From: Bradyrhizobium algeriense
GTDB taxonomy: Bacteria > Pseudomonadota > Alphaproteobacteria > Rhizobiales > Xanthobacteraceae
DNA: 64,000 nt
NCBI RefSeq assembly: GCF_036924595.1
Contig: NZ_JAZHRV010000001.1
Span: 7,343,501 to 7,407,500 of the forward strand
Direction of reading: 5' to 3'
The position numbers and the translations under genes are program-made. The notes beneath the pieces were generated by a model that saw only the letters and a program-made list of their open reading frames with translations, had not been told where the DNA came from and made no database searches. Positions 8,400 through 40,596 of the stretch are shown here, one piece after another; the stretch's first letter is position 1; every line of letters starts with the position of its first letter.

Positions 8400-8540
8400 G
8401 GGCGCTCCGGCTCCGCGCCGAGCTTAACGCAATCTTTCGTTGAGAACAAAGTTGGGCGACGAAGGGAACTTCCTTCCAGACGGATCGATCATAATCGATT
8501 CAAATATCGCCACCCGGCGATTCTCACGGCCGGATAAACC

Positions 8541-8578
8541 TGTCCCGGATTTCGCTTCGCTCCATCCGGGCTACGGGA
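8541..8578. repeat. Short dispersed inverted repeat (CCCGGAT...ATCCGGG)
   Basis: CCCGGATTTCGCTTCGCTCC is followed by ATCCGGGCTACGGG, making an imperfect hairpin between the sensor-kinase start and the sdhB stop. A half copy, GTAGCCCGGATGGAGC, occurs at 24648-24663. This is a common intergenic element style in these genomes. Confidence 0.6.
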
Positions 8579-8590
8579 CAGCGCCAGCCC

Positions 8591-9376
8591 CTAGATCTGG
8601 CGCTCGACCATCTTCAGCTTGAGCTCGGCGATGGCTTGCGACGGGTTCAGGCCCTTCGGGCAGGCCTTGGCGCAGTTCATGATGGTGTGGCAGCGGTAGA
8701 GCCGGAACGGGTCTTCGAGGTTGTCGAGCCGTTCGCCGGTGGCCTCATCGCGGGAGTCCGACACCCAGCGATTCGCCTGCAGCAGCGCCGCCGGCCCCAG
8801 GAAGCGGTCGCTGTTCCACCAATAGCTCGGGCAGGAGGTCGAGCAGCAGGCGCAGAGGATGCACTCGTAGAGGCCGTCGAGCTTTTCGCGGTCCTCGTGG
8901 CTCTGCTTCCATTCCTTCTGCGGCGTCGGCGTAGTGGTCTTCAGCCACGGCTCGATGGAAGCGTATTGCGCGTAGAAATTGGTGAGGTCGGGCACCAGGT
9001 CCTTCACGACCGGCTGGTGCGGCAGCGGGTTGACCTTGACGGCGCCGCCCGCGGCCACGTCGTGCATCGACTTGGTGCAGGCCAGCGTGTTCTGGCCGTC
9101 GATATTCATGGCGCAGGAGCCGCAGACGCCTTCGCGGCAGGAGCGGCGGAAGGTCAGCGTCGGATCGATATGGTTCTTGATCCAGATCAGGCCGTCCAGC
9201 ACCATCGGCCCGCAGTCGTTGATGTCGACGTGATAGGTGTCGACGCTCGGGTTCTTGCCGTCGTCAGGATTCCAGCGATACACCCTGAACTCGCGCGTCT
9301 CGGTCGCGCCCGCCGGCATCGGCCAGGTCTTGCCGCCGGTGATCCTCGAGTTCTTGGGAAGTGCGAATTCAGCCAT
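8591..9376 (-). CDS. sdhB: Succinate dehydrogenase iron-sulfur subunit
   Basis: This 261-aa subunit passes electrons from FAD to quinone. It has the plant-type ferredoxin motif [13 protein letters not shown]...LACT for [2Fe-2S] and two bacterial-ferredoxin-type clusters, [16 protein letters not shown] and [14 protein letters not shown]. The open frame runs 33 codons further upstream into a repeat. The ATG at 9376 with AGGACAT just upstream gives the usual family length. It is last in the sdhC-sdhD-sdhA-sdhB operon. Confidence 0.97.
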
Positions 9377-9400: not shown

Positions 9401-9445
9401 CGTCATTGCCGGGCTTGACCCGGCAATCCATCCTCTTTTGAAGCC
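9401..9445. repeat. Dispersed palindromic repeat between sdhA and sdhB
   Basis: CGTCATTGCCGGGCTTGACC followed by CGGCAATCCATCCTCTTTTG, a second repeat family (GGGCTTGACCCG core). It is inserted in the operon between sdhA and sdhB. The same family is the target of the transposon-like insertion at 38.5 kb. Confidence 0.75.
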
Positions 9446-37698: not shown

Positions 37699-38418
37699 TC
37701 ACCCGTCTGTCGTTCTTTTTGTGCCTTTTTGGCCGGGCCTCGCGGCCCATAAATCCGGCCGGCGCGTCCGGGTCAGGGCCTCGGCTTCGGCCCGGCGCCA
37801 GGCCGCCACCTTGGCATGGTCGCCTGAGATCAGGATTTCCGGGATGCCAAGGCCCTCGAACTCCTGCGGGCGGGTGAATTGGGGGTACTCCAGTAGTCCT
37901 TCGGAAAAGCTTTCGTCCTCACCCGAGGCCTGCTTGCCCATCACACCCGGCAAAAGCCGCACGCAGGCGTCGATCAGGGTCATCGCGGCGATCTCGCCAC
38001 CGGACAACACATAGTCTCCGATCGAGACCTCCTCGAGGTGCCGGGCTTCGATGACCCGCTGATCGACCCCCTCGAACCTCCCGCAGACGACCAGCGGCCC
38101 GGGGCCAGCGGCGAGTTCCGCCACAAGCGACTGGGTCAATGGCCGACCCCGCGGGCTCATCAGGAGGCGCGGACGGCTTTGGTCGATATCCGCAGCATCG
38201 ATCGCCGCCGCCAGCACGTCGGCGCGCAACACCATCCCCGGGCCGCCGCCGGCCGGGGTGTCATCGACGCTGCGGTGGCGGTCGGTGGCGGAGTCCCTGA
38301 TGTCGCGCGCCTCCAGCTCCCACAGGCCTGAAGTCAGCGCCTTGCCCGCCAGGCTGACGCCGAGCGGCCCGGGAAACATCTCGGGGAACAGTGTGAGGAC
38401 GGTAGCGCGCCAGGTCAT
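37699..38418 (-). CDS. trmD: tRNA (guanine-N1)-methyltransferase
   Basis: This 239-aa SPOUT-class enzyme makes m1G37 in tRNA. Seen: [51 protein letters not shown] (trefoil-knot SAM site) and [19 protein letters not shown]. In most relatives trmD directly follows rimM. Here a 1.48-kb transposon-like insertion separates them, so the gene now needs read-through or a new promoter. The ATG has only a weak ribosome binding site. Confidence 0.96.
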
Positions 38419-38446: not shown

Positions 38447-38476
38447 CGTCATACTCGGGCTTGACCCGCGTATCCA
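38447..38476. repeat. Left half of a GGGCTTGACCCG-family repeat split by an insertion
   Basis: CGTCATACTCGGGCTTGACC then CGCGTATCCA. The continuation expected from other copies (ATCCATC.TCTTTTGAA) is found only at 39954 onward, on the far side of the inserted element. The last 8 bp (CGTATCCA) are the left target-site duplication. Confidence 0.8.
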
Positions 38477-38834
38477 CGGCATTAGGTAGCGAACTCGCCT
38501 TGTCGCTATCGGTCGATGCTGCCGTTGGAGGCCAGCGGTGTCCGGTTTGTTCTTGACCATCAAGGCGGGGCATCGTGGATAACCCTTGCCAAACCTTAAG
38601 GTCCGGCGCTGTAGACGTGATTCGTGAGGGCTGATAGATTTAAAGAAATTACCGCGCCGGAGTGATCCGACGCGGTAAATCGAGCCAAGGTCGCGTTGGC
38701 GAGGGCTTAGCCCTTCCGATTATCTTCTGACGGCTTGCCACATGGGTTTCTCTGGGTCCGGCGCGGCCGGGGTTTGAGTGGCCTTGCGAAGGGAAGTGTT
38801 CCGCAAAAAACTGTCTTCCCTCTGCGGTGATACG

Positions 38835-38871
38835 AACGGCGACGGCCTCATTGGGCGTCGCCGTTTTGTTT
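38835..38871 (+). terminator. Plus-strand terminator-like hairpin inside the inserted element
   Basis: AACGGCGACG / CGTCGCCGTT form a perfect 10-bp stem with 11-nt loop followed by TTGTTT on the plus strand. It overlaps the 3' end of the DUF5343-like gene, which runs the other way. It would end a plus-strand transcript from the element's non-coding left part (38500-38835), where a further hairpin (GAAGGGAAG...CTTCCCTC) occurs; whether an RNA is made there is unknown. Confidence 0.55.
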
Positions 38872-39600
38872 AGCTGCGTCTTCTTTGATTATCGGAAAAC
38901 AGAAATCGAGAACTGCGCTGAACGTTGTCACGAACTTTGCGCGGTCATCGGCCGTCCAACCCTCGCCGGCTGCTGGCAGGCTAGCCAGTAGACCCGCCAG
39001 CGCAGGCGGCAAGCCACTATGCGCGGTGCTAGCAGTAGGCCTGGCAACGGCTTTCAGAAAGCTGCTGCGCTTGGCCGCCGCCGGGGCCGTTGGTTTCGGA
39101 AGAATGCGCAGGACCGATCGATTCTGCTGTGCCTTTGGCTTTTCCGGCGCAAGTCCGGCGGCGGCACACAATCCCTGAAAGAGCGTGATCATTCGATCTC
39201 GCTGGCCAGCTGGCTGGTAGCTTCGAAAGGCGTCGCGAATGGCGACATCGTCATCCTGGGAAGGATCAGCGAACGCAAACACGTCGGCGTATGCGCCCTT
39301 GAGCCAGTCCTCAAGGCGCTTCTTATATTCAGCCTCCGGAGCCAGACGGATACCTTCGAAGGTGGGCGTTGGCCTGCCCGCCTCGTCAATCAAATCGAGC
39401 GCCTGCAGCGCGTACAGGGTCCGAGGGATCAAGCTCTCCGAAATGCTCGCGCGGGCGAGAACCTCTGCATTGATAGGCGGCGGCAAGCCACGATTGCGGT
39501 GACGATCAACCAGATCAAGGATTGCGCTTGCCGGCGCATAGGGACAGGGCTTATCTGCTGTAACGGCCACGTCGGCCTCCGTTTCAGTCGCTTGTACCAT
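38848..39600 (-). CDS. DUF5343-like protein carried by the inserted element
   Basis: About 250 aa. The N-terminal half (PYAPASAILDLVDRHRNRG... LIPRTLYALQALDLIDEAGRPT... SYQPAGQRDRMITLFQGLCAAAG) matches the DUF5343 pattern and looks like a winged-helix region followed by helices. The C-terminal part is Ala/Pro-rich, then a helix bundle with DDRAKFVTTFSAVLDFCFPII. Starting at 39609 would add three residues (MCF). There is no clear ribosome binding site; a palindromic AT-rich control region abuts the start. It is oriented with the host operon. The molecular function of the family is unknown; a DNA-binding or regulatory role is an inference from the fold-like pattern. Confidence 0.8.
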   Translation of the reverse strand: MVQATETEADVAVTADKPCPYAPASAILDLVDRHRNRGLPPPINAEVLARASISESLIPRTLYALQALDLIDEAGRPTPTFEGIRLAPEAEYKKRLEDWLKGAYADVFAFADPSQDDDVAIRDAFRSYQPAGQRDRMITLFQGLCAAAGLAPEKPKAQQNRSVLRILPKPTAPAAAKRSSFLKAVARPTASTAHSGLPPALAGLLASLPAAGEGWTADDRAKFVTTFSAVLDFCFPIIKEDAAKQNGDAQ

Positions 39601-39610
39601 AAAACACATC

Positions 39611-39660
39611 GTACAGATAAAGTAAATAGCGTCCTGTTATCTGTACTGCAGGTACTGTAC
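39611..39660 (-). promoter_or_regulatory. Palindromic operator-like region of the DUF5343-like gene
   Basis: GTACAGATAA (39611-39620) and TTATCTGTAC (39637-39646) are a perfect 10-bp inverted repeat with 16-bp spacing, and a further CTGTAC sits at 39655-39660. On the minus strand TATATAGTAC just upstream could hold a -10 box. The half-sites therefore overlap promoter, leader and start codon, as expected for repression, possibly autoregulation. Confidence 0.6.
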
Positions 39661-39967
39661 TATATAACTATTTGAATTTGCTAATAAAAATAATTTAGAT
39701 ACGCGTGTGTACTAAAACATGGTGTAGAAAAATGAACTTATCGGTGGAAACGCGAGTGAAATCCGCCCCGATCTGATTCGCCGAACGCGCGGCGGATGGC
39801 TAGCAGCTGCGCCTAGCGGGGCTTTTCTGTCTTGGGAGTGACAGCGCTTACGGAAGAGCTGGCGCGGCAAAATTCTGTTCTGTGTTCAAACGGTGGGTAG
39901 AGATACTCGAAAGCGAGCCAAAATAGGCTTGGTGAGTTTGCTACCTAATGCTGCGTATCCATCTTAT

Positions 39968-40010
39968 TTGAAAAGGATGGATCGTCTTCTTTGAAAAGGA
40001 TGGATCGTCG
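39968..40010. repeat. 20-bp tandem direct repeat beside the insertion
   Basis: TTTGAAAAGGATGGATCGTC occurs twice with 3 bp between (39968-39987 and 39991-40010). It is the right half of the split dispersed repeat, locally duplicated. The remaining 60 bp to the rimM stop codon hold nothing recognised. Confidence 0.85.
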
Positions 40011-40071
40011 GGGCGCAGACAAGTTTACGTAGCCTTGCGCAAGGCAGACCACTTGGCCCGGCGACGACAAG

Positions 40072-40596
40072 TCAGGGCTGGGCGTCGTCGCCTTCGATTT
40101 CGATTTCCTGCGGCAGTTCGATCACCACGCGGCCGCCCGCGAGGTCGACCGTCGGCACCACCGCATTGGTGAACGGCAGCAGCATGGTCGGCCCCTGCGG
40201 CGGCGCGATCTCGATGATGTCGCCGGCGCCGAAATTATGGATCGCAGTGACGCGGCCGAGCGGCTCATCCGCGGCATTGACCGCCGCAAGCCCGATCAGG
40301 TCGGCGTGATAATATTCGTCCTCATCGGTCTCAGGCAGTTTTTCGCGCGCGACATAGAGCTCGATGCCGTTGAGCCGTTCGGCGTCCTCGCGGGTGGCGA
40401 TGCCCTTCAGCGTCGCCACCAGATGGTCCCTGGCCTCGCGGACATGCGTCACCTCGAACTGGCGCGCGCCGTCTTTCGTCATCAGCGGGCCGTAATGTTT
40501 TACGGCCAGCGGATCTTCGGTGAACGTCCACAGTTTCACCGCGCCGCGCACGCCGTGCGCAGCGCCGATACGGGCGACGCAAATCGGTGCTGCCAC
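40072..40596 (-). CDS. rimM: Ribosome maturation factor RimM
   Basis: This 174-aa protein helps assemble the 30S head. Seen: [23 protein letters not shown] at the N-terminal RimM domain, [36 protein letters not shown] at the PRC-barrel start and [15 protein letters not shown]. The start is GTG at 40596, 19 bp after rpsP. Downstream the transposon-like element separates it from trmD. Confidence 0.95.

Follow-up and report, generated by a model that had tools for sequence, protein, structure and literature searches.

Elements of the IS1595 family that carry passenger genes (transporter IS, tIS) were reportedly described by Siguier et al. in 2009. MITEs are short, lack coding capacity and usually occur in many copies, and IS231A belongs to the IS4 family. 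IS elements with passenger genes are a known kind, and so are mobile insertion cassettes (background papers: PMC3913671, PMC8101967, PMC3281130, PMC11578231, PMC7986276, PMC7371123, PMC3129680), the latter being exemplified in the excerpt from PMC3913671 by MIC231 of Bacillus cereus, which is moved by the IS231A transposase, and by mic-qnrD. The window considered here, by which we mean the entire analysed stretch of 64,000 nucleotides of the Bradyrhizobium algeriense genome, holds an element of 1,477 bp (38477-39953; GC 0.56 versus 0.636 for the whole window) that falls among the mobile insertion cassettes as portrayed in that excerpt (PMC3913671): it lies between IS inverted repeats and has a passenger gene instead of a transposase, a target duplication and an expected mobilisation in trans, whereas it differs from MIC231 in its IS1595-type ends, its duplication length of 8 bp, its DUF5343 cargo and a relic of the transposase side. 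With IS1595 passenger elements, as outlined in parts of PMC8101967 and PMC3129680, it shares ends, 8-bp duplication and cargo, but it has neither a transposase of its own, which sets it apart from tIS, nor the 150-aa helper protein described below. With MITEs, in the portions drawn on of PMC3281130 and PMC11578231, it shares non-autonomy and IS ends as boundaries, yet it codes for an intact gene and is present as a single copy and thus stands outside that class; a 41-bp form in another genome (G286) comes nearer to it.

We consider it very likely that the insert is a mobile insertion cassette that arose by internal deletion from a passenger-carrying transposon of the IS1595 family. Cognate full-length transposons, the transposase-side relic and relatives without the insert all support the original prediction of a non-autonomous element that brought one gene into a housekeeping operon. 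With these three components, the locus would be a clear case of a transposon cargo gene turned into a stranded resident of a core ribosomal operon.

Element ends and the IS1595 transposons that share them

The insert is bounded by 23-bp terminal inverted repeats, of which the left one (CGGCATTAGGTAGCGAACTCGCC, 38477-38499, plus strand) has two differences and the right one (CAGCATTAGGTAGCAAACTCACC, 39931-39953, minus strand, read 39953-39931) one difference relative to CGGCATTAGGTAGCAAACTCACC, the Bradyrhizobium transposon form. Directly outside lie two copies of CGTATCCA, the left at 38469-38476 and identical in 8/8 bases to the right at 39954-39961, which abuts the outer right end. The repeats (20/23 identical), the exact 8-bp duplication and the lack of a transposase within the 1,477 bp had all been claimed from the letters and were confirmed, the last by tblastn with the transposase, helper and DUF6471 proteins of relatives (best E 0.042). 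An 18-base core of the ends gave 5 matches in the 8.1-Mb genome at up to three mismatches versus 14 for a reversed-pattern control, and exact matches were confined to the two ends of the element. Since these are the sole exact matches, and since paired ends with exact 8-bp duplications occur in other genomes, the element ends are not chance resemblances. DNA searches of the own genome and of plasmids returned no second copy of the element, nor did protein searches of plasmids and phages; the family model and a transposase query from the complete transposon L077 gave no IS1595 transposase in the 8.1-Mb genome, and RNA-family models no match at E up to 1. Both ends in the window have changed from the family form, so that the cassette may no longer be movable; no genome carrying it at two places was found, and transposition of this cassette itself was therefore not seen.

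When the genome collection was searched with the 21-base end as pattern, it gave 12 stretches, all in records of Hyphomicrobiales, to which we take some of them to belong by their genus. Three elements bounded by paired ends, of 3,648 bp in Bradyrhizobium sp. BRP22, 3,909 bp in B. betae and 3,744 bp in sp. RD5-C2, all interrupt comM and all have an 8-bp duplication. G022, a genome of the own genus, carries the B. betae element at the L009/L013 coordinates, which places the own genome in Bradyrhizobium. An IS1595 transposase with a zinc ribbon (PF12762, E 1.6e-44; PF12760, E 5.2e-16; NF033547, E 1.4e-44) is encoded in the element of RD5-C2; among the cognate elements, DDE_Tnp_IS1595 together with a zinc ribbon was established for the transposases of L011 and L077. 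An exact 19-base end is present in 9/391 genomes of the family, own genome included, and complete elements were also found in G356 (3,696 bp) and G207 (4,520 bp). With the L077 transposase as query, 36 of 397 genomes of the order were positive at E 1e-60 or better, in 42 places; besides L077, we analysed 36 stretches covering 37 of these places. At most four mismatches between the two 22-base ends combined with an exact 8-bp duplication were found in 27 of the 36 stretches, the other nine, some of which are truncated where a contig stops, being without. Together with L077, L069, L070 and L011 this makes 31 elements of 3,388 to 7,610 bp, whose ends are nearly constant (consensus approximately CGGYATTAKGTAGCAAACGCAC). 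Full-length copies with a transposase between the same ends and with different cargo thus exist in other Hyphomicrobiales and, as the window element shares its ends with complete IS1595 transposons, it is by this measure an IS1595-derived mobile insertion cassette, with mobilisation in trans being a prediction.

A related protein of about 150 aa, which we call the helper, is encoded in 28 of the 31 elements; Pfam gave no match for it in any of three examples examined, and it may contribute to the transposition machinery. Of the other ORFs of at least 80 aa, which are mechanical ORFs and not all genes, most (96) are confined to one element. When the BRP22 and B. betae elements are added, 6 of 33 IS1595 elements interrupt comM, three at one point and three at another, while the originally proposed use of the repeat as a landing site is represented by the single case of the window element. 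The comM insertions are those of L011, L002/L010 and L009/L013 and those of L077, L145 and L153, their hosts belong to different families, and comM thus looks like a repeated target. ISL3, IS66, IS256 and Tn7-like elements were considered on the grounds of the 8-bp duplication or the repeated comM insertions and dropped, the cognate transposase being IS1595. The 41-bp form in G286 (L071:8830-8870) is a minimal one, in which two IS1595 ends adjoin back to back between two copies of the duplication CGAAAGTC.

The DUF5343 cargo gene and the question of defence

The cargo gene (38848-39570, minus strand) would encode a protein of 240 aa from a GTG at 39570 that follows GGAGG; an alignment with 31 homologues makes this the most likely start, and the mechanical ORF begins at 39609 (253 aa). 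The cargo, first noted as DUF5343-like, proved to be a true DUF5343 protein (PF17278, Pfam E 1.2e-24, 87.6 bits against a cut-off of 27), with a nearly full-length domain match and with all 49 invariant columns of a 32-sequence alignment that includes the sequence itself, and it is the sole gene in the element recognised by a family model. The protein collection holds 939 homologues at E 0.001 or better. An AlphaFold2 model reached a mean pLDDT of 76.1, with the highest confidence at about residues 31-150; it had no PDB match by fold at E 0.001 or better, and by sequence none better than E 0.15, so that the predicted fold is uninformative on function. The term DUF5343 was absent from the open-licence PubMed Central papers searched, and among the papers listed, most of them judged by their listing, neither DUF5343 as cargo nor an IS1595-derived cassette came up as a subject.

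Upstream of the gene lies a perfect 10-bp inverted repeat (GTACAGATAA/TTATCTGTAC, spacer 16, 39611-39646), 41-76 nt before the GTG and without any difference in G054, the genome of a second species with the same insertion. It is a possible candidate operator; as a conserved feature it was rejected, having no counterpart upstream of the relatives in G645, G091 and G733. Further out, at approximately 39770-39900 on the plus strand, are the remains of a small divergent ORF, which is in pieces in both the window and G054 when frames are compared by eye. By the same kind of inspection, a small divergent ORF (GGWIAV...IGVTANSEEDARAAF) adjoins DUF5343 in G645, where it is open (L077, about 8530-8730), with a similar reading in G091 and not in G733. 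The small ORF may be a partner of the DUF5343 gene. A stable hairpin overlaps the end of the DUF5343 gene (38828-38875, plus strand, z -5.05); it would act as a plus-strand terminator, and no gene was identified on that strand.

Among the 31 complete IS1595 transposons, one contains DUF5343, namely L077 of G645, a genome from another family of the order. This element measures 5,013 bp, has perfect ends and the duplication GAATTTCC, and contains a transposase, a helper, DUF6471, a PDC-M59A protein, a Fic protein and DUF5343, the last being 54% and 49.8% identical to the window cargo in two comparisons. The gene follows the transposase in L077, whereas in the window it precedes the place where a transposase would have been, so L077 is not the direct ancestor. 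DUF5343 would seem to have been carried as cargo more than once.

The cargo of the other transposons hints at a role of DUF5343 in defence. It is possible, with the balance leaning against it, that the gene is an anti-phage gene and that IS1595 transposons with a 150-aa helper serve as carriers that exchange short defence modules. From the ORFs of the 31 elements we picked by hand a list of 47 cargo proteins, leaving off transposase/helper clusters, shadow- or helper-like ORFs, a second transposase and most ORFs below about 150 aa, and scanned the 30 longest individually. With E 1e-8 as the limit, PADLOC models matched 8 of these 30, which come from 7 of the 21 elements sampled: two methyltransferases, a dCTPase, BstA, PDC-M59A, PDC-S13 twice and PDC-S42. 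Pfam, run on all 47, added AbiEii, Fic, SocA_Panacea, M78 and Mrr_cat, and the window protein itself matches the defence-candidate model PDC-M34A, weakly, at E 8.6e-7 for a model without a curated cut-off. Against this stand the 22 of 30 proteins without a match, the breadth of the methyltransferase models and a neighbour control of 20 host proteins, taken from 31 listed in list order after the first. The control gave one match, a DRT6-like reverse transcriptase adjoining an element, and the difference between cargo and neighbours is borderline (p 0.052 one-sided, 0.067 two-sided). Cassette ends were sought beside the DUF5343 relatives in G645, G091, G733 and G001, the weak matches in G164, G088 and G046 being left out, and were found in G645 only; this, too, speaks against the anti-phage interpretation, although a contig end is no more than 0.4 kb away from the gene in G091 and 2 kb from that in G733. 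We regard as doubtful the wider proposal that a Hyphomicrobiales clade of IS1595 elements, with near-constant ends, transposase and 150-aa helper, swaps short cargo, much of it for phage defence, and repeatedly targets two fixed points in comM, that DUF5343 would be an undescribed defence module, and that the window would show such a module fixed once the transposase was deleted. The comparable IS1595 transposons form a set in whose cargo unknown defence genes can be sought. At L140:4359-5435 an ORF matches DRT6-type reverse transcriptases (E 2.1e-90) and ends 24 bp away from an IS1595 element, which perhaps cuts it short.

The transposase-side relic and probable derivation by internal deletion

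Between the cargo gene and the left end, 225 bp of non-coding sequence (38518-38742, minus strand) match the region upstream of the IS1595 transposase gene in L070 (bases 641-865 of that element; 74.6% over 232 columns, same strand, E 2.5e-35), in which the transposase match starts at 1127. A weaker match was obtained with L152 (68.7% over 131, E 1.5e-12), and no match of more than 35 columns in the remaining 31 of the 33 elements compared. The relic includes a 13-bp hairpin with a T tail (38649-38678, minus strand; z -4.87, 0/200 shuffles as stable), nearly the same as one in L070, which is likely an intrinsic terminator in the operon direction, as predicted from its structure. A role of such a terminator as a general insulator of IS1595 transposases was rejected as a family rule, since 6 of 33 elements have such a hairpin on that strand within 800 bp upstream of the transposase, while five rounds of shuffling gave 0-4 and the opposite strand has one in 16 of 33.

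Viewed from its preserved parts, the element looks like an internal-deletion derivative, and on the simplest reading the transposase and helper would have been lost through a deletion that stopped near the left end. It is unlikely that the DUF5343 gene was instead captured between two solo IS1595 ends: while complete elements share with the insert just the ends and the one 225-bp stretch, and the gene matches a single complete element at 54%, capture is opposed by the relic, which separates the cargo from the end, has the expected strand and includes nearly the L070 terminator, and by the occurrence of DUF5343 as cargo of a complete transposon. Against the deletion model, in turn, stand the gene order in L077 and the presence of the non-coding stretch in just two of 33 other elements. 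According to the deletion model that we prefer, an ancestor with the ends, DUF5343, transposase and helper would have lost the latter two, and the cassette, its ends recognised in trans by an IS1595 transposase, would have entered the dispersed host repeat that lies between rimM and trmD; alternatively, the deletion may have followed the insertion. The trans-acting transposase would later have been lost, or would never have been resident, leaving the cassette stranded, and the cassette would then have spread between Bradyrhizobium species by homologous recombination, not transposition. The cargo would be transcribed from its own AT-rich upstream region, with transcripts ending at the terminator at 38678-38649.

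Insertion site, operon context and probable exchange between species

As claimed at the outset, the element separates trmD (37699-38418, minus strand, the downstream neighbour) from rimM (40072-40596, minus strand, the upstream neighbour), names that come from the original prediction and from gene order. Orthologues of trmD were found in relatives (40 of 41 genomes searched; 30 loci listed, 29 of them from relatives), and orthologues of rimM near trmD in 25 of the 29 relatives' stretches. The conserved order rpsP-rimM-trmD-rplS invoked in the original prediction holds, as regards rimM-trmD, in 24 of 29 relatives, with gaps of 5-199 bp, but in five rimM does not directly precede trmD: one has a gap of 1,276 bp, and four have no rimM within 1.5 kb of trmD and another gene beside it. 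None of these five carries cassette ends at up to six mismatches at the altered junction. Other ORFs lie upstream of trmD in L042, L044, L045, L046 and L049, and by eye L042, L045 and L046 have a dehydrogenase-looking ORF in common; the junction is thus open to change in the genus. Insert-free sites, also proposed as a check at the outset, exist in the four genomes with the most similar TrmD protein (G023, G024, G001, G019), where 13-19 bp, with neither insert nor repeat, lie between rimM and trmD.

The element sits in an apparent dispersed host repeat, the left part of which (38447-38476) matches repeats in other Bradyrhizobium genomes and the right part of which (39962-40068) contains a 23-bp tandem duplication. 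That removal of the insert recreates a dispersed repeat was upheld insofar as a continuous repeat occurs elsewhere in other Bradyrhizobium genomes, but the supposedly intact copy at 9401 is merely distantly related, and the joined 39-mer has no match in the window at up to three mismatches. The joined site is matched in 171 of 195 Bradyrhizobium genomes, many of the matches being short; the best 18 loci, when re-examined, all align across the junction (73-89% identity, small gaps), and one example from another genome shows 86% over 115 columns. An orthologous site with repeat and without insert was not found among the relatives; the repeat probably entered the intergenic space first, followed by insertion of the cassette into it.

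The cargo gene has the orientation of the interrupted operon (rpsP, rimM, element, trmD, rplS), and the hairpin at 38678-38649 faces trmD, in a setting where terminator-like sites are not rare (5 found versus 2.5 expected). If this terminator is functional, trmD and rplS depend on transcription that either passes through it or starts from a promoter between it and trmD. A consensus search gave no sigma-70-like promoter, a result of little weight in this bacterial group. That the insertion was kept as useful to the operon, for example with a terminator uncoupling trmD-rplS from rpsP-rimM, seems very unlikely, since a strong predicted terminator in the operon direction and an insertion common to two species would fit, but the insertion is confined to 2 of 195 genus genomes, own included, and the segment looks recently exchanged rather than old in both species.

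In the second species (G054) the insertion is the same and occupies the same position, and only these two of the 195 genomes have the cargo gene at 99% identity or more, the next best reaching 61%. Between the two, the cargo gene is 99.6% identical (3/762 differences versus 60/720 in trmD), the other two parts of the element 98.9% and 95.9%, and the short flanks about 98%, versus 91.7% for trmD, 94.2% for rimM, 92.8% for rpsP and 95.2% for ffh. Synonymous changes number one in 254 codons of the cargo gene and 41 in 240 codons of trmD (Fisher p 6e-13). This pattern suggests a single insertion followed by recent exchange of the segment through homologous recombination. The rplS gene, at 97.9%, departs from the contrast between element and host genes; as it is outside the segment, low divergence is not confined to the element and could in part be due to selection. 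G054 lacks the 23-bp tandem duplication that the host repeat has at 39962-40007, which indicates that its copy number changed after the two copies parted.
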